Below the pieces are notes generated by a model. It saw only the letters and a program-made list of their open reading frames with translations, had not been told where the DNA came from and made no database searches. From IMG/VR virus record IMGVR_UViG_3300032224_001300, positions 1 to 23,760 of that record: DNA of 23,760 bases; one strand, written 5' to 3'. This document shows positions 1 to 22,548 of the stretch, piece by piece (the stretch's first letter is position 1; each line of letters begins with the position of its first letter). The position numbers and the translations under genes are program-made. This stretch comes from a virus.

Positions 1-768
1 GCGGCCATCGGCCCGGCCGTAGCCCACATTGCTGCATAGGACGACGGGGCTTCCTCGCTCGACCGCCGCGCACAACTCATCCCAAGTGTTTACCTGGGCG
101 ACGGCGAGCGCCTTGTGCTTAAACGCCTCGCGGGCCAGCTCGTCGGGCACCCCGATCGCGCCCCACTCGCGACTCTTCGGAATCGAATACTGCCGAAGGT
201 CATACGCCCCGTAGACCTGCCTATATAGGATGCCGCCAACCCCGGGGGTCCGGCATTTGCCGGCGATCCACCGAGCGGCTCCCGAGCCCGTGGCGCCGTC
301 GCCCCCGGGCTGGCTTGATCGCCCCATGCCGGCGGTGCGAGCCCCGCCATACACCGGCTCAGAGGCGACGGTAGGGGGAGGCATCGGCAACCGTCCGATC
401 GCCCAATCCGTGGCCTGCCCCGTGCGGGCTCCCAAACTGAACGCGAACGACACGCACGTCCCAGCCTGCCCCTGGTCAAGACACTGCCACGGCACACCGT
501 AGACGGACTTATGAGCCTTGTCGGTGAACCGATAAAGAAACGTGTCGACGCCCTTAGCCTGCTGGATCGCGTCCGCGCCGGCCTCCGCAAACGTCGGCTG
601 GTCGAGTTGTTGCAGGAACTCCCGCGTGGCTTCCGGGTTCGGCGTATAACCGAAATTCGCCTCGAGGTGCGTCACCATCCGATGCGTGACAATCTGCACC
701 AGCGTCCCGAGCAGGGCCGCAAAGCAGATGAAGGCGATAGCTCCGAGGCTATATCTACTTCGAGGCAT
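1..768 (-). CDS. Papain-like cysteine peptidase, membrane-anchored, 3' end beyond window
   Basis: An open frame starts at ATG 768 and runs without a stop to base 1, giving 256 residues of a longer protein. Residues 6-26 are a hydrophobic signal anchor. Residues 99-105 read QGQAGTC, which has the same spacing as papain QGSCGSC, so Q99 would be the oxyanion-hole glutamine and C105 the nucleophile. The catalytic His and Asn would lie beyond the left edge. Residues 138-170 are rich in glycine, as in planctomycete-phage proteins of this type that I recall. The start overlaps the previous gene's stop by 14 bases, and a GGGAGG site lies about 10 bases upstream. As the last visible gene of a membrane-protein operon, it could cleave host envelope protein during lysis or entry; that role is inference. 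The family call is fairly secure, the substrate is unknown. Confidence 0.7.
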   Translation of the reverse strand, partial: MPRSRYSLGAIAFICFAALLGTLVQIVTHRMVTHLEANFGYTPNPEATREFLQQLDQPTFAEAGADAIQQAKGVDTFLYRFTDKAHKSVYGVPWQCLDQGQAGTCVSFAFSLGARTGQATDWAIGRLPMPPPTVASEPVYGGARTAGMGRSSQPGGDGATGSGAARWIAGKCRTPGVGGILYRQVYGAYDLRQYSIPKSREWGAIGVPDELAREAFKHKALAVAQVNTWDELCAAVERGSPVVLCSNVGYGRADGR

Positions 769-1222
769 CGGCGGCCGCCCTCCCGACTGCCCGGAACGCC
801 GCTACCCAATCGGCGCGCTTCTCAGGCGTCAGCGGCCCGCCATCGGTGCCGGCCGCCTGGTCAAGAAATTGCTGAATGGCCTCCCGGGCCTTCGGCTGAC
901 GGGCCCCGATCGAATCGCCTTTCATCCGGGCCTCGCGGGCGGCCACCCGCAAATCCTCGACTGCCGCCCCGGTGCGAATCCGCTGTTCGTTCGCCGGCCT
1001 CGCCCCGTCATAGGCCAGACATTCAGCCAGCTCGTCACAGAGGCCGGCGAGGGCGGCCGCATCCGACGCGGCCGATGGAGTCTGAAACTTCCCCCGGAGC
1101 GAAAACTCTCCCGGCCCGGGCGGGGCAGGGGAGGGGGCAGACGGCTCCCAGCTTGCAAGCATGGTCAGCAGCGCGACGGATGCTAGGCCCGCCGCGATCA
1201 TGTAGCGTGTCGTGCGCTTCAT
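755..1222 (-). CDS. Small signal-anchored protein of planctomycete-phage type
   Basis: This is a 155-residue protein from ATG 1222. That start overlaps the preceding stop as ATGA and has a GGGAG site nine bases upstream; an in-frame start at 1249 would overlap the previous gene further. Residues 6-24 are hydrophobic (signal peptide or anchor) and are followed by a Pro-rich linker and the segment FSLRGKF at 40-46. The remainder is predicted soluble and helical, with a DLRVAAREARMKGD segment and a GGPLTPEKRADW segment near the end. There is no lipobox cysteine. I recognise the pattern from planctomycete phage and prophage proteins of unknown function. It sits between a one-membrane-segment protein and the papain-like peptidase, so a role at the envelope is plausible but unproven. 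Confidence 0.65.
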   Translation of the reverse strand: MKRTTRYMIAAGLASVALLTMLASWEPSAPSPAPPGPGEFSLRGKFQTPSAASDAAALAGLCDELAECLAYDGARPANEQRIRTGAAVEDLRVAAREARMKGDSIGARQPKAREAIQQFLDQAAGTDGGPLTPEKRADWVAAFRAVGRAAADASK

Positions 1223-1476
1223 ACCAGATCGCTCCCGTTCACAAGGCACAGCGTCAGCGTCTCGATCGCGGCTTTGGCTTTGTCGTCGAGGGTTTCCGTG
1301 GCCTGCAACCGCTCGCGAATCTCGACCACCAGTTCAAGGGCCTCGCGGCAAGTGACGTGGCGAGGGGCAGCGGGCTCCGCCGCCGGGGCCGGCAGGGAGA
1401 ACGCCGGACGAGCCGAGGGCATCGGCCAGAACGCAACGGCGGCCGCCGCCGCAAGTAGGAAACAAACGGCGATCAT
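1219..1476 (-). CDS. Small single-pass membrane protein
   Basis: This is an 85-residue protein from ATG 1476, coupled to the upstream stop by an ATGA overlap and to the downstream gene the same way. The first 18 residues are a hydrophobic membrane segment. A Pro/Ala linker (about 20-38) leads to a short helical domain containing TCREALEL and DDKAKAAIETLTL. The topology, an N-terminal anchor with a small helical domain outside, resembles spanin or holin partners, but no specific spanin motif is visible. Its place between a holin-like protein and a signal-anchored protein supports a lysis or envelope role by context only. Confidence 0.6.
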   Translation of the reverse strand: MIAVCFLLAAAAAVAFWPMPSARPAFSLPAPAAEPAAPRHVTCREALELVVEIRERLQATETLDDKAKAAIETLTLCLVNGSDLV

Positions 1477-1850
1477 TTGGCAAGCCTCACGAGGGGTACG
1501 AGTTGATCGATAGCACCGGACGCCAGCGCGAGAACCACGGCCCGGAGGGGGCCGCGGCAGGCGACGAACAAGGCGAACGCCGGCAGGGGAACGGCCTTGC
1601 TTGCCACCAGGTCGAAAAGCGATGCAACCGCACTGAGCGCGACGTCTTTCTTTTCTTGCCCGGACAGCCGAGGCATCGCATCAAGGGCACCGACAACAAG
1701 ACGGAGCAACGCGACAAGCAAAGAACCAAATTCGGCCCACGTTATGCCGTTGGCGGCCGACGCCTTGGCGGTCGAGAGGAACGCGCCGACCTGTGCGGCG
1801 AGATCGTTGTGTCCGTCAGCGGCGGCTACGGATGACTCTGCAATGGTCAC
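1473..1850 (-). CDS. Holin-like hydrophobic protein
   Basis: This is a 125-residue protein. I take GTG 1850 as the start because it overlaps the previous stop as GTGA; the longer frame from 1961 would run through the previous gene. Two amphipathic-to-hydrophobic stretches are visible, residues 36-60 (starting ITWAEFGSLL) and about 84-120, separated by a charged loop GQEKKD at 64-69. The shape, two hydrophobic segments and a basic C-terminus, fits a small holin or holin-associated protein, and similar proteins recur in planctomycete prophages. The hydrophobic stretches are not strongly apolar, so a soluble helical protein remains possible. Confidence 0.55.
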   Translation of the reverse strand: MTIAESSVAAADGHNDLAAQVGAFLSTAKASAANGITWAEFGSLLVALLRLVVGALDAMPRLSGQEKKDVALSAVASLFDLVASKAVPLPAFALFVACRGPLRAVVLALASGAIDQLVPLVRLAK

Positions 1851-2104
1851 TTGATGAGCCCCTGTTCCCACATTTGTTTCGCTTGCGTGACGTTGACGCC
1901 CAACTCGTAGGCGAGACATTCCCAAAACGTGACCGTTGGCCGCGGCCTCGAGGTAATGCAACCGAGCCCCGTCTGTTTCGGCGGCTGGTAGTTCAGCGTG
2001 TCGCCCTGCCCGACCGGCGCCATGGCCTCCCGGCCACGCTTCCCATGACGGAACGAGGTCTCTTCTTCCGTCCGATGGCTGTTTGCCCGCCTTATCACCG
2101 GCAT
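1847..2104 (-). CDS. Small hypothetical protein, first gene of left-end operon
   Basis: This is an 85-residue basic protein that I do not recognise. ATG 2104 has an AGGAG site very close upstream and lies just after a promoter-like element. A later in-frame ATG at 2023 is also possible (also behind a GGGAGG, but too close). The N-terminal 40 residues are charged and probably disordered. The C-terminal 30 residues include FWECLAYELGVNVTQAK, which could form a short helix-turn-helix-like fold. Its stop overlaps the start of the holin-like gene (GTGA), so the two are probably translated together. Confidence 0.5.
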   Translation of the reverse strand: MPVIRRANSHRTEEETSFRHGKRGREAMAPVGQGDTLNYQPPKQTGLGCITSRPRPTVTFWECLAYELGVNVTQAKQMWEQGLIK

Positions 2105-2161: not shown

Positions 2162-3007
2162 TTAGGCGATAACACCAAGGGCTTGAAGCACGCGCTCGCG
2201 GAGATCGTCAAGCGTGCCGTAGTTCTCAATCACCGGCTCGTGCTCCTCGAGCCCGATTCCGTCCTCGCTTGAGTGCGACGAGGCGGTCGCCGGCCCATCC
2301 CGACGAACACGCCAAACCTCACCGCCCATCTGGCGGATTGCGGACGCCTCGTTCTCAAAGCGAACATCTGCGACAACGATCGTCCGCACACCTTGGCTTT
2401 CAAGCGTTTCGATCCGCCGCTCGAGCAGACGAATCCAAATGCTTCGATCGATCAGATCGCGTCCCCACTCCGTGCCGAGGGTCTGCATCATCTGCCGAGG
2501 CGATTTGCCGAGCCCGAGAAACGGCACCTCTTTGTACGCTGGCGATCGCAGCATCGACTCAGGCACACCGAGCATTGCCGAGAGTCCGGCGTACAGTGGA
2601 TCGGCAAGTTGAACCACAACGGCCGCGGGAATCATCCCGGCCACGGTCGTCTTGCCAGACCCGGCCCGGCCCGAAAGGCCGATGATCCGAGGGCGGTCTG
2701 AAGCCTGACGGATACGCGCGTGCATATCCTTGTGCCGCTGGCGGACGCCGGCCCACGCATCGGCGGCCCGTTGCTCGTCGATCGAAATACTCTCTTGGTT
2801 GTCGATCGCCTTACGAAGCGACGGAGCCGCGGCGTAGAGTTGTTGCAGCAGTTTTCGGATGGCGTCCAAGAGTCGTTTCCTTTCAAGCAGGAGGCGGGCG
2901 GAATCGGCGGCCAGAGAACCGGCCGTTCCGGTCCATTGCCCTTGATAGCGGTAGGCCCGTTGCCGAGCCTGCTCGATGTAGTCAGCCGGCAAGAGATCGA
3001 GGTTCAC
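2162..3007 (-). CDS. Deoxynucleoside monophosphate kinase-like P-loop protein
   Basis: This is a 281-residue protein starting at GTG 3007, which overlaps the phosphoesterase stop as GTGA. The kinase domain begins near residue 107. It has a P-loop GRAGSGKTT at 113-121, an ADPL motif at 135-138, TLGTEWGRD at 176-184 and DVRFENE at 214-220, the pattern of phage T4 gp1-type dNMP kinases, which phosphorylate dNMPs to dNDPs for phage DNA synthesis. An N-terminal helical extension of about 105 residues is not part of the usual family core and has no recognisable fold. It is odd to find nucleotide metabolism embedded among late structural and lysis genes. Confidence 0.75.
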   Translation of the reverse strand: MNLDLLPADYIEQARQRAYRYQGQWTGTAGSLAADSARLLLERKRLLDAIRKLLQQLYAAAPSLRKAIDNQESISIDEQRAADAWAGVRQRHKDMHARIRQASDRPRIIGLSGRAGSGKTTVAGMIPAAVVVQLADPLYAGLSAMLGVPESMLRSPAYKEVPFLGLGKSPRQMMQTLGTEWGRDLIDRSIWIRLLERRIETLESQGVRTIVVADVRFENEASAIRQMGGEVWRVRRDGPATASSHSSEDGIGLEEHEPVIENYGTLDDLRERVLQALGVIA

Positions 3008-4200
3008 GGGCCGCCCCCGATCCGCGGGCCGGCAACGTGCATCGCCTCAAGCCCGCCGGCCCCGGAGTAGATGAACAGCTCCATCGCCTGACGGTTGTGC
3101 ACCCAGCCGTGGTCCGCGTGATAATCGTCAGCAGGCCCCAGCGACGGCGCAACACGGACCAGCACCCCGTCGATAGTCTCGATCGGCCTCGACCACTCCG
3201 CGGCCTGGTGGTGAAGGTGCCCGGTATGAATCTCGCGGTAGGGGCAGGCGGCCCACTGCTGCGGCGACTCGATCGCCATGAGCTGCGGCAATTTCTTTTT
3301 GGCATGGTTGCCGTGGGCGAACCCGAGAAGGTTCCGGCCGTTCGATGCGTACTTGCGAGAGGTGTACGCCTCATCTACCAGCACGCGCTTGTCGCGGCCG
3401 TAACGCTCAAGCAGCATCCGGTGAAACGCCCATGTAAGGGTCGTGTCGTGATTGCCTGGGACTATCGTGACGTCGGTGGCGGCCGTGTCCGCGGCTTTCT
3501 CAACTATTCCGATCAGCGTTCGCCAACCGACCTCGATCATTTTTTGCAGGCGGCCGTCACGCTCAAGCGGTGTACCATTTGTGGTACTACCGCCCGGGGA
3601 GTCGTAGTGAAACAAGTCACCGAGCATCGCAACCGTCAGCCGTCGCGGCTTGTAGCGGGCCGCGACTTCGAGCAGCTCGTCGGCCGCCTGGCCGACGACA
3701 CGCTCCGCGATGTTCAAATCGTAGTCGCGATCGCCGGTCGTCCTATGCCATGCGTACTTGGCTATGTGCGTGTCTGCCACCACCAGCACGGCCCACCGAT
3801 CGGACGGTTTGGATGCCTTCGCCTTGGGCCGGGCGGGCCGGCGTATTTCTTTTTTCGCGGCGGCAATCATCGCCTCGACCGCCTCGCGAACCCCGGGGCC
3901 TGGCCTAGGCTTGAGCCGAACGAACACCCGGAACAGCTCCGTCACCACGGGCCGGCCGGTTTTTCGATCGACGGAACTTGACTCCCACTTTGTGGCTTCA
4001 CTCTGCGCGACTTCAAACCGCGTCAAGTCAGCATCGATATGTTTGAGCAAATCCTCGACCGTGCGGATCACGCGCGACGTAGAACGGGCCTCGAGCACGT
4101 CGCCGGTCTGCCGCTGCGTGACCTGCTCCGCTTCAACAGGCGGGGCGGGGGCAGGCAGCTCCGCCGCCAGCTCGTCGGCGAGGCTTATTTTTTCAGCCAT
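3004..4200 (-). CDS. Calcineurin-like metallophosphoesterase with N-terminal phage domain
   Basis: This is a 398-residue protein from ATG 4200, overlapping the upstream gene by 16 bases. Metal-binding motifs appear in order: DTH at 143-145, GDLFHYD at 194-200, GNHD at 249-252, AHGNH at 295-299 and GHLHH at 327-331. These define the calcineurin-like superfamily that includes SbcD/Mre11 nucleases. The N-terminal 120 residues (IRTVEDLLKHIDADLTRFEV from 45) match a region often seen ahead of phage phosphoesterases and may bind nucleic acid or partners. The substrate cannot be read from sequence. It is translationally linked to a dNMP kinase, which suggests DNA or nucleotide metabolism. Confidence 0.8.
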   Translation of the reverse strand: MAEKISLADELAAELPAPAPPVEAEQVTQRQTGDVLEARSTSRVIRTVEDLLKHIDADLTRFEVAQSEATKWESSSVDRKTGRPVVTELFRVFVRLKPRPGPGVREAVEAMIAAAKKEIRRPARPKAKASKPSDRWAVLVVADTHIAKYAWHRTTGDRDYDLNIAERVVGQAADELLEVAARYKPRRLTVAMLGDLFHYDSPGGSTTNGTPLERDGRLQKMIEVGWRTLIGIVEKAADTAATDVTIVPGNHDTTLTWAFHRMLLERYGRDKRVLVDEAYTSRKYASNGRNLLGFAHGNHAKKKLPQLMAIESPQQWAACPYREIHTGHLHHQAAEWSRPIETIDGVLVRVAPSLGPADDYHADHGWVHNRQAMELFIYSGAGGLEAMHVAGPRIGGGP

Positions 4201-15197: not shown

Positions 15198-16054
15198 TAG
15201 AAGAACGTCACCGTGTCGGTGCCCTGAGTGATAGTGATCACTCGATCACTGCCGCTTGTGGTCGAAGAATAAGTGAGTCCCGCGCCAAGCGTAATGCCCA
15301 AGGCGGCATTGAATCGCAACGAAATCACGCCGGAGCCGCCGTTCGCGCCATTTGCGGAACCTCCCCCGCCGCCCCCGCCGCCCGTGTTCGATGTGCCCTG
15401 CGTAGCGGATGCGGTATTAACAGACCCCGCGCCGCCGCCGCCGGTGCCGCCTGTCCCAGCCGCGCCGGCCCCCGCCGAACTCGAACCGCCGCCGCCGCCG
15501 CCGCCAAACGACGCCGCTGTTGCCGGTGTTGTTGACGACACACCAGCCCCTCCGGAACCAGCAACGCTCGCGGTCGCGGTGGTTCCTGCACTGGATGCAC
15601 CGCCGCCGCCACCGGCGCGCGTAGATATCCCAGTTGCCCCTGAGTTGCCCTGAAGGGGAGCCAGCGACACGGCGCCGGCAGCAGTGCCATTACCGGCTCC
15701 ACCAGACGCGCCTGGGTTTCCTGTCTGCCCGTTGTTGCCGCTGCCACCACCGCCACCACCGATAGCCGTGATGGTGTGGAAATAGCTCTGGGAACCGTTG
15801 CTTCCGCGCAGGTTGAGTGTCGTCGAGCCGCTGCCACCCGCGCCAACGCTCACCGAGTAAGAGGCTCCGAGAACCACGACAACCGACGTGTCAATCACGC
15901 CACCCGCGCCAGCACCGCCGCCAGCGCTATTAGTTGAATACCCGAGCCCACCGCCGCCGCCGCCGCCGACAACGAGACAACGCACCAGCCGAGACACGCT
16001 TGCGCGTAGCCTCGCGTTGCTCGCCAGCGACGTGGACGCGATACGGTTACTCAC
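15197..16054 (-). CDS. Glycine-rich fibre/adhesin protein
   Basis: This is a 285-residue protein from GTG 16054 (GTGA overlap with the upstream stop). After a helical N-terminus (residues 1-27), residues about 28-245 are dominated by runs of glycine separated by Ser/Thr/Asn strands (for example CLVVGGGGGGGLGY and AIGGGGGGSGNNGQTG). This is the pattern of tail adhesins that pack polyglycine helices to form a receptor-binding tip. A short beta C-terminus (YSSTTSGSDRVITITQG) follows. It is probably a receptor-binding tip for the fibre encoded at 16381-17361. Confidence 0.75.
   Translation of the reverse strand: MSNRIASTSLASNARLRASVSRLVRCLVVGGGGGGGLGYSTNSAGGGAGAGGVIDTSVVVVLGASYSVSVGAGGSGSTTLNLRGSNGSQSYFHTITAIGGGGGGSGNNGQTGNPGASGGAGNGTAAGAVSLAPLQGNSGATGISTRAGGGGGASSAGTTATASVAGSGGAGVSSTTPATAASFGGGGGGGSSSAGAGAAGTGGTGGGGAGSVNTASATQGTSNTGGGGGGGGSANGANGGSGVISLRFNAALGITLGAGLTYSSTTSGSDRVITITQGTDTVTFF
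15486..15505 (-). repeat. CCG/GCC trinucleotide microsatellite
   Basis: Six to seven uninterrupted CCG units encode part of a polyglycine run in the Gly-rich adhesin. A similar tract lies near 15949-15968. Changes in copy number would remain in frame. Confidence 0.7.
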
Positions 16055-16380
16055 GTTACCTCGACTCCAAACGCCGAAAACGCGACGTTTGTCGCACCGG
16101 CGTAGACGCTGATGACATCGGTTGCAGCCAGCGCTATGCCCAGAGTTAGCGTCACCGTGTCGTTCGCAGGCAACGCCGCGTCGTAGGCGATGTAGTGCTG
16201 TGTTGCCACTGTCGCCCCGGATGGACGGATAGCGACTCGGTAGGTGGTAGCGCTGCTTGTCGTGTTGCAGACCGTCAGCGACGAGCAGACGGCCTGCGTA
16301 GAGGCCGGAACGGTGTAGAGCGTCGTTAACGTCGTGGCCGATGGGCTTGATTGCCCGAGCACCTTATGCGCTTGTGCCAT
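16051..16380 (-). CDS. Small fibre-associated structural protein
   Basis: This is a 109-residue protein whose ATG follows immediately after the previous stop (TAA, ATG). It starts MAQAHKVLGQSSPSATTLTTL and contains YTVPASTQAVCSSLTVCN, YDAALPANDTVTLTLGI and VYAGATNVAFSAFGVEVT. This is a compact beta-sandwich pattern common among phage and prophage structural proteins that accompany tail fibres. It may be a decoration or capping protein for the fibre. Function is unproven but the family pattern is easy to recognise. Confidence 0.65.
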   Translation of the reverse strand: MAQAHKVLGQSSPSATTLTTLYTVPASTQAVCSSLTVCNTTSSATTYRVAIRPSGATVATQHYIAYDAALPANDTVTLTLGIALAATDVISVYAGATNVAFSAFGVEVT

Positions 16381-18588: not shown

Positions 18589-20496
18589 TCAAGCGGTCGC
18601 CATGCGGTAGGCCGAAAGGCTCTCGCTCTTGGCAACTCCGAAATCCATGTACCCCCTCATCGCCACGCCCAACAGCGAGTAGTCCGCTTGGACCTGCTCG
18701 ATGGTTGGGACCTGTTGGCCGTTGAGGAAAACAACGTCCAGCGCGGGAAGGTCCAGCGCATCGGCCATCAGCCACCAGGTCGAGGACGACGACAGGTAGG
18801 CCGACGTCACCACGCGATACCGACCCTGAAGGACGTTCCCGTTGGGGGCGGCGGTCGTGTTGCCGCTGATGAGCAGGGCGCTCGTCATCAGCTCCGCGGC
18901 CGTCAGTTCCAGCTCCGGGGGAACGAGCAGCACCTTCGGCGCGATGCCGAGAGGGTTGCCGTCCGGGTCCTTCAGCCGACGCCACGCGGTGGACGCCGTT
19001 TTCAGGCTGGACAGAGACAGGGCATTGCCCGCTGCCGCCGTTGCCGCCTGAAAGTAGGAACTGTTCGAAGCCTCGAACTCGGCCCAAATGGACTCGTTGA
19101 GACTCAGGGCAGCACCGCGACCGATCCGCTGCGGAATCTGACTCAGCGCGTTGGCGTCGTCGTTGATGATGTCCTGCCGCGTGAGGGACGTCTGGATGCC
19201 CCATGTGTCAGCCGAGAGGGTCCGCTTGGTATCGCTACCCTGCGCGACCTTCAGCTCACCGCCGTTGCCCACCTTCTGGAATTTGAACGAACCGTTCAAA
19301 CGCAGGAGGTTGATGTTCTTGAAATCGCTGACGCTGCGGACGTTTGAAATCGACTTCCAAGAATCCTCGACGCTCATGAAACCCGCGAGCAGGAACTTGT
19401 TGACCAGAGCGGCCAGCAGGTTCGAAATGTCGTGGGTCGCGAACGCCGCTTGCAGGATCGGGCCGAGGCTGCTGCTCGACAGACGATCCGATCCGCTGTA
19501 GTCGTTGCTCTTGGCGGCCTGGAGCAACACCTGGCCGATCGAAACGTCTCGCTTGCACTTCTCGGCGGCCTCGAGGGTCCGGCCGTCGAACACCTTCTCG
19601 ACGTTGGGGAGCCCGCTCTGCAAGCACAGCGCGGCCTCCACCACCTTGCCGGAATCGATTTCCGGCTGCACATGGATTCCGACCCCGCCGCGGCTCATCC
19701 GCAGCTCGGCCAGTTCCACGCGCTTCGCAAGGGCCTCGCGAGCCTCGCGCTCGGCCTTCAGTTGGGCCTGGAGCACTTCGGTCGCACCCTTGGAATGGTC
19801 GTCGGCAGCAGCGCCGTCGCCACCCTTGGCGTTGATGATGGGAGTTTCCACGGCGCCGGTCGCCGCGGCTTCCACCGGATCGGTGGGCGAAAGGTTGGCG
19901 TCGTGCGCCATATCGCTATCCTCGCTCGCCTCGGCGGCGATCGCCGCGGACGTAGAGGCGTCCGCTCCCATCAGAACAATCGAGGTCTCGCGAAGTGCGG
20001 AACCTCGAACCACGGAAATAGGGCCGGCAAACTCCCGGCCGTTGACGGTGACCGCAGACCCGGCCGCGATGTTTTCGATGCGGCTTGTGTCCGCACCGAT
20101 GGACGCTTGGAATCGCATCCCGCGCTTGGCGAGTGCGATCACCTTCTGAGCCGTCTGGCCCTCGCCAATCAACTCGCCCGACACGATGAGTTGCTGGCCG
20201 TCGTTCACGATGCTCGTGGACTGCCCAAGCACCGAGTCGATGCTTGAATCGTGCCCCCACAGAATCGGGATCGACTGCCGGCTGTTGTCCATGCCGGCGA
20301 GGTCAACCACCAAGGCGTTGCGTGACCACGATTGCCGGATCGCCCGGCCGGTGTAGGCCACCAGTTCAAACGTCGGCGTCGTGCCGGCGACGTCTGCGGC
20401 CTTCAGCGCAAACTCTGCGTCGATGGCACAGATGCGACCCGGGGTCGCCGACGCGGCAATTCGCGCGCTGGTTGATTTCTGATTTTTTTGTTTCAT
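18589..20496 (-). CDS. Prohead protease, scaffold and major capsid protein in one polypeptide
   Basis: This is a 635-residue protein from ATG 20496, overlapping the portal stop (ATGA) with an AGAGGTG site upstream. Residues 44-180 form a prohead-protease domain, with WGHD at 80-83 (H82 a likely catalytic residue), FQASIG at 129-134 (S132 a likely nucleophile) and LRETSIVLMGAD at 168-179. Residues 200-270 are charged and helical, with a coiled coil near 238-266, as in scaffold segments. From about 315 onward it matches Mu gpT-like major capsid proteins, including DFKNINLLRLNGSFKF (391-406) and TRQDIINDDANALSQIP (439-455). Autocleavage would release the capsid subunit. No separate protease or capsid gene is present. 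Confidence 0.85.
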   Translation of the reverse strand: MKQKNQKSTSARIAASATPGRICAIDAEFALKAADVAGTTPTFELVAYTGRAIRQSWSRNALVVDLAGMDNSRQSIPILWGHDSSIDSVLGQSTSIVNDGQQLIVSGELIGEGQTAQKVIALAKRGMRFQASIGADTSRIENIAAGSAVTVNGREFAGPISVVRGSALRETSIVLMGADASTSAAIAAEASEDSDMAHDANLSPTDPVEAAATGAVETPIINAKGGDGAAADDHSKGATEVLQAQLKAEREAREALAKRVELAELRMSRGGVGIHVQPEIDSGKVVEAALCLQSGLPNVEKVFDGRTLEAAEKCKRDVSIGQVLLQAAKSNDYSGSDRLSSSSLGPILQAAFATHDISNLLAALVNKFLLAGFMSVEDSWKSISNVRSVSDFKNINLLRLNGSFKFQKVGNGGELKVAQGSDTKRTLSADTWGIQTSLTRQDIINDDANALSQIPQRIGRGAALSLNESIWAEFEASNSSYFQAATAAAGNALSLSSLKTASTAWRRLKDPDGNPLGIAPKVLLVPPELELTAAELMTSALLISGNTTAAPNGNVLQGRYRVVTSAYLSSSSTWWLMADALDLPALDVVFLNGQQVPTIEQVQADYSLLGVAMRGYMDFGVAKSESLSAYRMATA

Positions 20497-22253
20497 GAAA
20501 ACACCTCTTCCTCGGTTTGCCACTCGGCTTCGGCTCGCTTCAAGACTCCTTCAGCGAACCGTCGTCCAGCGTCTCCACCCCACAGGCCCCACGCGATTCG
20601 CCCCGCAGACGGGTAGCCTTTTTGACCGGGCGCCCATCCTTGCCCCTTCTTGTCAACCTCGTGCCTGGCGAAATAGCTGACCATCCGACCGATCGTGTCG
20701 AGGCTGAGTGCCTTGCCGTTGGATATGTCGCGAGCGCGGGCTACGCCGACTTCGGTGCCACCGCGGTTGAACTCGCGCCGCCACTCCAAGGCTCGGGCCG
20801 CCTCTTTCTGCGCTTCCTTTGGTGGCACATAGCCGTCCGCGGCCTTCGTGTCCGCTGGCGCATCTACTGGTGCAGCCGGCTCGGCCGCTGCTTCCAGGCC
20901 AAGCTCGCGCATCAGCTCTTTCTCGGCGGCCCGCTGGCGAAGAATCTCCCGCCAATCTGCGCCGACCTTGCTGCACTCGTCGGCGAGGGTTGTCGTGTTG
21001 TTCGCGAGGCGGATTGTTTGCGCGTCGGCTTCCTTCGTCGGATCGACGTGTTCCCATCCCTGCCAAATCCAACGCCAATTCCACTCGGCCACCGGAGGCA
21101 GGCCGTTTGGGATCAGGCCGCGGATGAGCGCCGCCTCGTCCAGCCAATCCACGAGAAGCGGATCGAGCACGTTTCGCTCGAGGTCCTCCCGCAGGCAGTT
21201 CACACTCTTGCGGTAGACCAAGTAGTCGCCACGCATCGATGAATAGGACGCCTGCGAGGAATCAAGGGCCGCGACGATGTACGGCAAATTCAGGCAGCGG
21301 GCGATTTGGTTGAGCAGTCGCTTTTCAAAGTCGCTGTAGGTGCTCGTCGGATGCTCTGGCTTCATCTGCGTGGCATCCCAACCGTCCGGCAGGCTCATCG
21401 CCATGCCGCGCACAATCGGCATCGTGTCCCACGACGGAACAGCGGCCGTGCCGGTATCGCCGGCTGGCGTATTCGTGTGAATGAGCGCCGCGAAGTCAGC
21501 GGCAGTCTCGGCGGCCTGCACCGTTGCGAGCGTGAACCGGCGGAGCATGGCGAACAGCTCAAGGGCCGGGACGATTTCCCCGACGCCTCGATGCTGGCCC
21601 GGACGAACCTTGTGCGCCCAGTGCAGGATTCGATCGGCCGGAATCCAATCGCCGGTATTGTGCGCCCAAGTCAGAGAACCCGGGTGATTTTTGAGCAAGT
21701 GCCATTCGACGATGTTGCCGCTATCGTCCAAGCGAAGGCCGTCGATCTGGCCTAGCGCGAGAATCCATTGCGGGTTGGCGATCTGATCGGCCTCGATCAG
21801 CTCAATGTCGAGCTGAACGCCGTCGAGCAGTCGATTTGTTTTCTTTCGAGCGAACACTTCGCCGTCCACCGCGCGAGCCCGCCGCATGATTCGCAGCTTG
21901 GCGGCCAGGTCGATCGCCCTCGCCCACTCGTGTACGTTGTGCTCGACCGACCGAACGCTTTGATCTTCGGGCTGGACGCCCGGGATGATGAGCTGAAGGC
22001 GTGGGCCAGTGCCCACAAGGTCCGTCGCGAGCGTTGACAGCATCCCCGCCAGATACGAATTGTTGTCGGCCTCGTACCTCGCTCGAGCCCGCAGGGTACG
22101 CCGGACGCCCGGGTGCAACGCTGCATCAGCGGAATACCAATCCGACTGAGCCCAATGCCGCTGATTGTTGGTCGTCGTCTGTGCGGCGTCGTACCTCGCC
22201 TGCACCGCAGGCGGGTCCGGTTTCTTCCGAGAGAAGAACGACAGCAGGCTCAC
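20493..22253 (-). CDS. Portal protein, lambda type, with C-terminal extra module
   Basis: This is a 586-residue protein. I take GTG 22253, right after the previous stop; the earlier ATG frame (22343) overlaps that gene. Residues 40-440 carry lambda-portal features: WYSADAALHPG, YEADNNSYLAGMLSTLATDLVGTG (split across 60-83), RAVDGEVFARK near 128-137, VRPGQHRGVGEIVPALELF and SSQASYSSMRGDY. The portal forms the dodecameric DNA gate. Residues about 475-575 form an added module with WRREFNRGGTEVGVARARD, SLDTIGRMVSYFARHEVDKK and GYPSAGRIAWGLWGGDAG, seen elsewhere as a separate domain in phage head proteins. The linker (455-472) is Ala/Pro-rich. Confidence 0.85.
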   Translation of the reverse strand: MSLLSFFSRKKPDPPAVQARYDAAQTTTNNQRHWAQSDWYSADAALHPGVRRTLRARARYEADNNSYLAGMLSTLATDLVGTGPRLQLIIPGVQPEDQSVRSVEHNVHEWARAIDLAAKLRIMRRARAVDGEVFARKKTNRLLDGVQLDIELIEADQIANPQWILALGQIDGLRLDDSGNIVEWHLLKNHPGSLTWAHNTGDWIPADRILHWAHKVRPGQHRGVGEIVPALELFAMLRRFTLATVQAAETAADFAALIHTNTPAGDTGTAAVPSWDTMPIVRGMAMSLPDGWDATQMKPEHPTSTYSDFEKRLLNQIARCLNLPYIVAALDSSQASYSSMRGDYLVYRKSVNCLREDLERNVLDPLLVDWLDEAALIRGLIPNGLPPVAEWNWRWIWQGWEHVDPTKEADAQTIRLANNTTTLADECSKVGADWREILRQRAAEKELMRELGLEAAAEPAAPVDAPADTKAADGYVPPKEAQKEAARALEWRREFNRGGTEVGVARARDISNGKALSLDTIGRMVSYFARHEVDKKGQGWAPGQKGYPSAGRIAWGLWGGDAGRRFAEGVLKRAEAEWQTEEEVFS

Positions 22254-22254
22254 G

Positions 22255-22548
22255 CTATTGGCACCCGTAGGGCGGATAGCCCGGCAGACCAGCCATGCCG
22301 GGGGGCGGATACACCGCGTCGGAAACGGCCGGGTCCGGGGCACCGGAGGCGTTGGGGGCGATCGTGGCCGCGAACCGGAGCGCGGCGAACGGCGATCGGC
22401 TCACGCCGGCCATCGCGATAGCGAACTTGGCCGCGGCCACCTGCTGGCCCAGGTCGTGCTGCTCAACCTCGCCGGCATCCGTGCGGGCACGCTTCGGCTG
22501 GGCGAGATTCGCCGCAATCGCTGCCAGAATGTCGTCGGTAGCGGACAT
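22255..22548 (-). CDS. gpW-like head-tail joining protein
   Basis: This is a 97-residue protein from ATG 22548 with a CGGAG site about eight bases upstream; an earlier ATG (22578) lacks one. It begins MSATDDILAAIAANLAQPKR and contains TDAGEVEQHDLGQQVAAAKFAIA, the G-x-x-V...L pattern of gpW-like joiners, with a Pro/Gly-rich tail. It lies directly before a lambda-type portal, which is where gpW-like proteins occur. A promoter-like element lies 31 bases upstream. The family match is moderate because the protein is short. Confidence 0.65.
   Translation of the reverse strand: MSATDDILAAIAANLAQPKRARTDAGEVEQHDLGQQVAAAKFAIAMAGVSRSPFAALRFAATIAPNASGAPDPAVSDAVYPPPGMAGLPGYPPYGCQ

Follow-up and report, generated by a model that had tools for sequence, protein, structure and literature searches.

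Lysis by double-stranded DNA phages needs, in the textbook view, an endolysin that cuts peptidoglycan, and the locus described here raises the question of whether some tailed phages could leave their hosts with proteases in place of such an enzyme. The stretch of DNA analysed (the window) is an entire IMG/VR record of 23,760 bases; it is a fragment of a tailed phage. Its main genes all lie on the minus strand and include those for lambda-type portal, capsid, cement and tape-measure proteins. Its last five genes (A-E, Table 1) had been proposed to form a lysis cassette, in which five overlapping genes would follow one promoter-like element and a papain-like peptidase would open the host by proteolysis. 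All five reading frames are indeed present on the minus strand, and neighbours overlap by 4 nt (GTGA or ATGA) at A/B, B/C and C/D and by 14 nt at D/E. Although short open reading frames may arise by chance in GC-rich DNA, for B, C, D and E this worry is countered by purifying selection, as dN/dS values of 0.07-0.26 were obtained against near relatives (dS near 1). Gene A had to be removed from the proposed core, since its conservation is confined to phages that share the post-tail context. As to the promoter-like element, the 16-mer GAACAAAGGTACAATA is identical in the window and near relatives, though the adjoining genes have dS near 1, and it is likely regulatory; however, no sigma-70 match was found in it.

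Table 1. Positions of the cassette genes and adjoining features in the window
Feature	Position	Strand	Remarks
Gene E, papain-like (C1-type) cysteine peptidase, predicted membrane-anchored	1-768	minus	First 256 of about 360 aa; open at base 1
Gene E landmarks			Anchor about residues 9-27, Q99, C105; half with H and N past base 1
Gene D, predicted N-terminal membrane anchor and conserved extracytoplasmic domain	755-1222	minus	Domain without family match
Gene C, predicted single anchor	1219-1476	minus	85 aa; optional in cassette
Gene B, holin candidate	1473-1850	minus	125 aa; two amphipathic/hydrophobic segments
Gene A, small basic protein	1847-2104	minus	Post-tail context only
Intergenic 16-mer, promoter candidate	2119-2134	minus	Upstream of gene A
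dNMP kinase	2162-3007	minus	Context marker; left boundary of cassette slot in the window's lineage
Metallophosphoesterase/exonuclease-like protein	3004-4200	minus	Context marker for finding phages without E

Among the structural genes of the window, the portal gene (20493-22343, minus strand) encodes a C-terminal domain, residues about 505-607, which recurs at 53-66% identity in other phages; these show no other portal similarity and carry the domain in reading frames of about 340-380 aa. A single 644-aa reading frame at 18589-20523 (minus strand) seems to combine a head-protease-like N-terminal half, recognised by eye, with the major capsid protein, the Pfam family Phage_capsid_4 being matched at residues 360-631.

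The proposed assignment of E to papain-like enzymes was based on the spacing of Q99 and C105, and this is borne out, as the two residues (WQCLDQGQAGTCVSFAF) stand at the +6 distance found in papain. The second half of the active site lies past base 1, and an objection could have been that the remainder of the protein lacks the catalytic His and Asn. This objection does not hold, because Q, C, H and N (the latter two at 274 and 297) are invariant in 210 of 210 full-length homologues, a distant plasmid copy included, and the W-x-H-[AC] and N-S-W motifs are present in all full-length copies. An AlphaFold (AF2) model built from 77 sequences reached a pLDDT of 90.9 and a pTM of 0.86 (a run with 11 sequences gave a pLDDT of 40 and was not used). 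When this model was compared with the PDB by Foldseek, 164 matches at E <= 0.001 were obtained, those listed being C1 proteases; the best was xylellain (3ois, E 1.2e-8), followed by cathepsins, and the S-layer protease Cwp84 was among the top matches. In a viral library, the model matched unstudied phage proteins named Peptidase C1A. Thus, E shares with the papain-type C1 peptidases (xylellain, cathepsins, Clostridioides difficile Cwp84) the Q-C-H-N site, the NSW motif and the overall predicted fold. It differs from them in being phage-encoded, membrane-anchored by prediction and placed in a late cassette, and in its sequence, which was recognised in Pfam, PHROGs and PDB sequence searches by none of the entries and gave no match to Peptidase_C1 (PF00112) in either protein or six-frame searches. 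By the criteria of active site and modelled fold, E is a papain-type C1 peptidase, though one outside the Pfam model.

One N-terminal hydrophobic anchor is predicted in 76 of 77 copies of E, and the architecture consists of this anchor and the peptidase only, with no wall-binding, amidase or glycosidase domain. The number of viral contigs found to encode E rose from 25 in the first scan to 183 in later alignments and finally to at least 582, and no credible match was obtained in a public phage collection. A scan of bacterial genomes with a short query returned a lone match, a 55-aa chance reading frame in Gallacutalibacter, which was rejected.

The company that E keeps was assessed at 79 distinct loci, with peptidases more than 10% different from one another; most of the contigs are fragments, and the denominators given for each gene are the loci with enough sequence. 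Upstream of E, D was present in 74/74 loci, B in 67/74 and the optional C in 34/74, whereas two genes that lie past base 1 of the window, G and F, followed E in 70/71 and 58/71 loci, respectively. C, D and F are predicted single-anchor proteins without family match, whereas G is small and rich in Cys; the expectation of small membrane-anchored proteins beside the peptidase is supported, in the form of a compact cassette that includes the predicted single-anchor C and D. A small membrane protein of the GlsB/YeaQ/YmgE-like type (PF04226) joins the cassette as a further optional member at about half of the E loci (e.g. L026:11481-11735), and a CxxCxGxG-like motif is seen in the Cys-rich G (L136:2215-2619, on the plasmid pPLIM01 described below; e.g. 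L066:11551-11835 among the E loci).

This gene group occupies at least three genome positions: after the tail module (33 loci), in the interval between the head protease and major capsid genes (26) and before the terminase (12), and when these slots are placed on the tree of E, 21 changes are needed. In mosaic phage genomes, lysis or immunity modules stay intact while their surroundings change, and the cassette, kept together amid changing surroundings, behaves like such a module. The frequent location of E between the prohead protease and major capsid genes might also be taken to mean that it is a morphogenesis or entry protease, processing capsid or tail proteins. We find this very hard to accept: E carries a predicted membrane anchor at its N-terminus, lies among genes for membrane proteins and occurs in phages equipped with a head protease of their own, and the same cassette is also found behind the tail module and in front of the terminase. 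An entry system, offered as an alternative in the original prediction, is likewise disfavoured, the proteins being membrane-anchored and not tail-associated.

The strongest new evidence came from phages without E, which were found by seeding on the phosphoesterase adjoining the cassette and whose backbone and B are those of the E-bearing phages. In one of them (L300), the space separating B from the next conserved gene holds two other genes: CYS2, which encodes a Cys-peptidase-like protein with conserved Q, C and H and no family, and TRYP, which encodes a trypsin-like protease (L300:14650-15522 and 15528-16271). The latter has an apparent signal peptide, matches Pfam Trypsin_2 at 1.8e-20, and its His, Asp and Ser are invariant. 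The N-terminus of TRYP also bears a motif similar to the CxxCxGxG of G, which may connect the two cassette types functionally. For CYS2, a profile comparison revealed no relation to E, and no match was obtained in the PDB and no relative in Pfam, PHROGs or public phage collection searches; because of the missing relation and PDB match, only the conserved Q, C and H suggest a papain-like enzyme. The CYS2 family comprises 51 loci (L344-L393 among the examples of the alternative cassette), where it stands with B and TRYP, and never with E, in slots that the E set also uses (post-tail and protease-capsid); conversely, CYS2 or TRYP was present in 0 of 212 E loci. An independent scan seeded on B yielded 67 further loci, of which 41 carried E, 19 CYS2/TRYP, none both and seven neither; at the latter seven, the sequence ends 454 bp or less from B. 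All 60 B loci with enough sequence hence carry exactly one protease set, and no third cassette type behind B was seen among the 67. Two unrelated sets of predicted extracytoplasmic proteases, exchanged in one slot behind one B, are the pattern expected of endolysin replacement, with the enzymes being proteases.

B is the sole component common to both cassette types. Its hydropathy is borderline (about 1.2-1.5), its Pfam match is sub-threshold (E 0.034), and it matched no holin family and no relative in Pfam, PHROGs or public phage collection searches. A role of B as a holin or pore former is thus put forward as a candidate one.

A hint of the host comes from pPLIM01 (NC_014149.1), a plasmid of Planctopirus limnophila that is circular, 37 kb in size and available as a complete record. 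It carries genes for terminase, portal, head protease, capsid, tape measure, ParB and integrases, and is on this gene content regarded as a phage-plasmid. Directly upstream of its HNH-TerL region lies a homologue of E (27% identity, E 7e-8; 97.6% probability in profile comparison), in which all four catalytic residues align. When used as a seed against viral contigs, the plasmid-borne E gave no match. The structural genes of pPLIM01 add no link to the host, because their similarity to the contigs (best TerL 41%) does not exceed that to other phages. The gene preceding the E homologue (L136 region, 21-2622) encodes two N-terminal hydrophobic segments and, as judged by eye, a lipobox-like LAGC in its interior and a C-terminal portion that recalls D. 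A planctomycete host for the window phage is likely, though short of proven, as the link consists of one distant plasmid-borne homologue. Planctomycetes, P. limnophila included, have peptidoglycan (PMC4432640), and the phage should therefore need some way to deal with it.

The statement that no muralytic enzyme is visible was extended from the window to its relatives. When 29 records (1.23 Mb), among them the window and pPLIM01, were searched in all six frames, the families NLPC_P60, SLT, Phage_lysozyme, CHAP, Peptidase_M23, Amidase_3 and Peptidase_M15_4 were absent, and Amidase_2 was not found in 20 of the same records; each of these searches was positive in control genomes, while a search for GH108 was uninformative, because its control stayed silent. 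No muralytic family occurred among all 18 Pfam families matched by a 49-kb contig of the window's own lineage (G021) or among the best 25 of the 39 matched by the circular pPLIM01. The search for a classical endolysin thus came out in favour of the original prediction, in pPLIM01 as well, though an unrecognised muralytic enzyme may remain, since most genes match no family. In phages with neither protease set, the 25 families listed for the genes downstream of the phosphoesterase contain no muralytic one; 22 further families lie outside this list.

A separate problem is a possibility that E, and CYS2 likewise, are themselves endolysins, i.e. papain-fold enzymes cutting the cross-bridge peptides of peptidoglycan, as NlpC/P60, CHAP and LysA N5 domains probably do. 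The hosts have peptidoglycan (PMC4432640), N5 domains of mycobacteriophage LysA, which reside within endolysins, were assigned to the papain family (PMC3314691), and the viral fold matches of E include proteins named N-acetylmuramidase and peptidoglycan binding-like. Nevertheless, E matched neither NlpC/P60 nor CHAP in HMM searches and has no wall-binding domain, its top PDB fold matches are C1 proteases that cut proteins, and one enzyme of the alternative set is a serine protease of the trypsin-like kind. To our knowledge, no trypsin-like serine protease cleaves peptidoglycan. We consider an endolysin role of these enzymes unlikely.

The cassette could also alter the cell surface without lysis, the protease serving superinfection exclusion, receptor shaving or lysogenic conversion from a prophage or phage-plasmid. 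Such a function would agree with the predicted envelope location, with mobility between genomes and with occurrence in a phage-plasmid and integrase-bearing phages, and a planctomycete phage was reported to exit its host without lysis (PMC10945688). The cassette lies, however, inside late structural operons and on the same strand, either between the head protease and major capsid genes or directly behind the tail genes; moreover, it is near-universal in dissimilar phages in which no other lysis gene was found, and an essential late role fits these facts better. A surface-modifying function thus appears rather improbable.

We therefore favour exit, and regard it as fairly probable that B, C, D and E, together with F and G, form a cassette for late exit from the host, with proteolysis replacing the cleavage of peptidoglycan; late expression is suggested by the genome position. 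The active site, the anchor, the cassette of small proteins, the lack of a recognised muralytic enzyme and the substitution of one protease set by another all speak for this part of the original prediction, whereas the inclusion of gene A and the entry variant were not upheld. In the proposed mechanism, B would permeabilise the inner membrane or signal at it. E would be held by its anchor with the catalytic domain outside the cytoplasmic membrane, as its predicted topology indicates, and C, D and F would face the same compartment; these proteins and G may keep the protease in place, inhibit it, activate it or provide a scaffold for it, or may act in a spanin-like manner. On a trigger, E would cleave those envelope proteins on which the cohesion of the wall or outer membrane depends, and the cell would open. 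In other phages, B is paired with CYS2 and the secreted trypsin-like protease, which would do the same job. As planctomycetes have peptidoglycan, either a protein part of the envelope would have to be critical for its integrity, or E would also cut peptide stems. Protein is the more likely target, because the alternative set has a trypsin-like enzyme, while some action of E on peptide stems is conceivable in view of the papain/C39-like N5 domains of mycobacteriophage endolysins.

The closest parallel in organisation is the holin-endolysin-spanin system S-R-Rz/Rz1 of phage lambda, with which the cassette shares compact overlapping late genes, a small membrane protein followed by a predicted extracytoplasmic hydrolase, more small anchored proteins, and the exchange of non-homologous enzymes in one slot between phages. 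In contrast to lambda, the hydrolases are here proteases, no muralytic enzyme was found, and B, C, D, F and G match no holin or spanin family. As far as gene content tells, the cassette lacks the muralytic enzyme that defines a classical lysis cassette, yet it is built and exchanged like one. Like E, mycobacteriophage Lysin A N5 is a cysteine peptidase with a papain fold, and it serves in phage lysis (PMC3314691), but it is one domain of a modular endolysin that also has a muralytic domain, whereas E stands alone with its anchor. Signal-anchor-release (SAR) endolysins are extracytoplasmic lysis enzymes that, like E, carry a membrane anchor at the N-terminus; they differ from it in that E is a protease and not muralytic. 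In the literature consulted on papain-type lysis, protease lysis and lysis genes of planctomycete phages, no equivalent was found. It may be, and we propose this tentatively, that a large group of tailed phages exits by proteolysis through two unrelated protease sets convergently coupled to B, a lysis system not described before.

Proteases in the place of the endolysin, in a group with at least 582 contigs encoding E, would represent a new exit strategy. Exit by protease is testable in culture, as P. limnophila harbouring pPLIM01 is a cultivated strain. If proteolytic exit is true, the integrity of the host envelope depends on protein; it would then also bear directly on a long-standing question, the extent to which planctomycetes rely on protein in their envelope, and the phage enzyme would indicate the load-bearing substrate.
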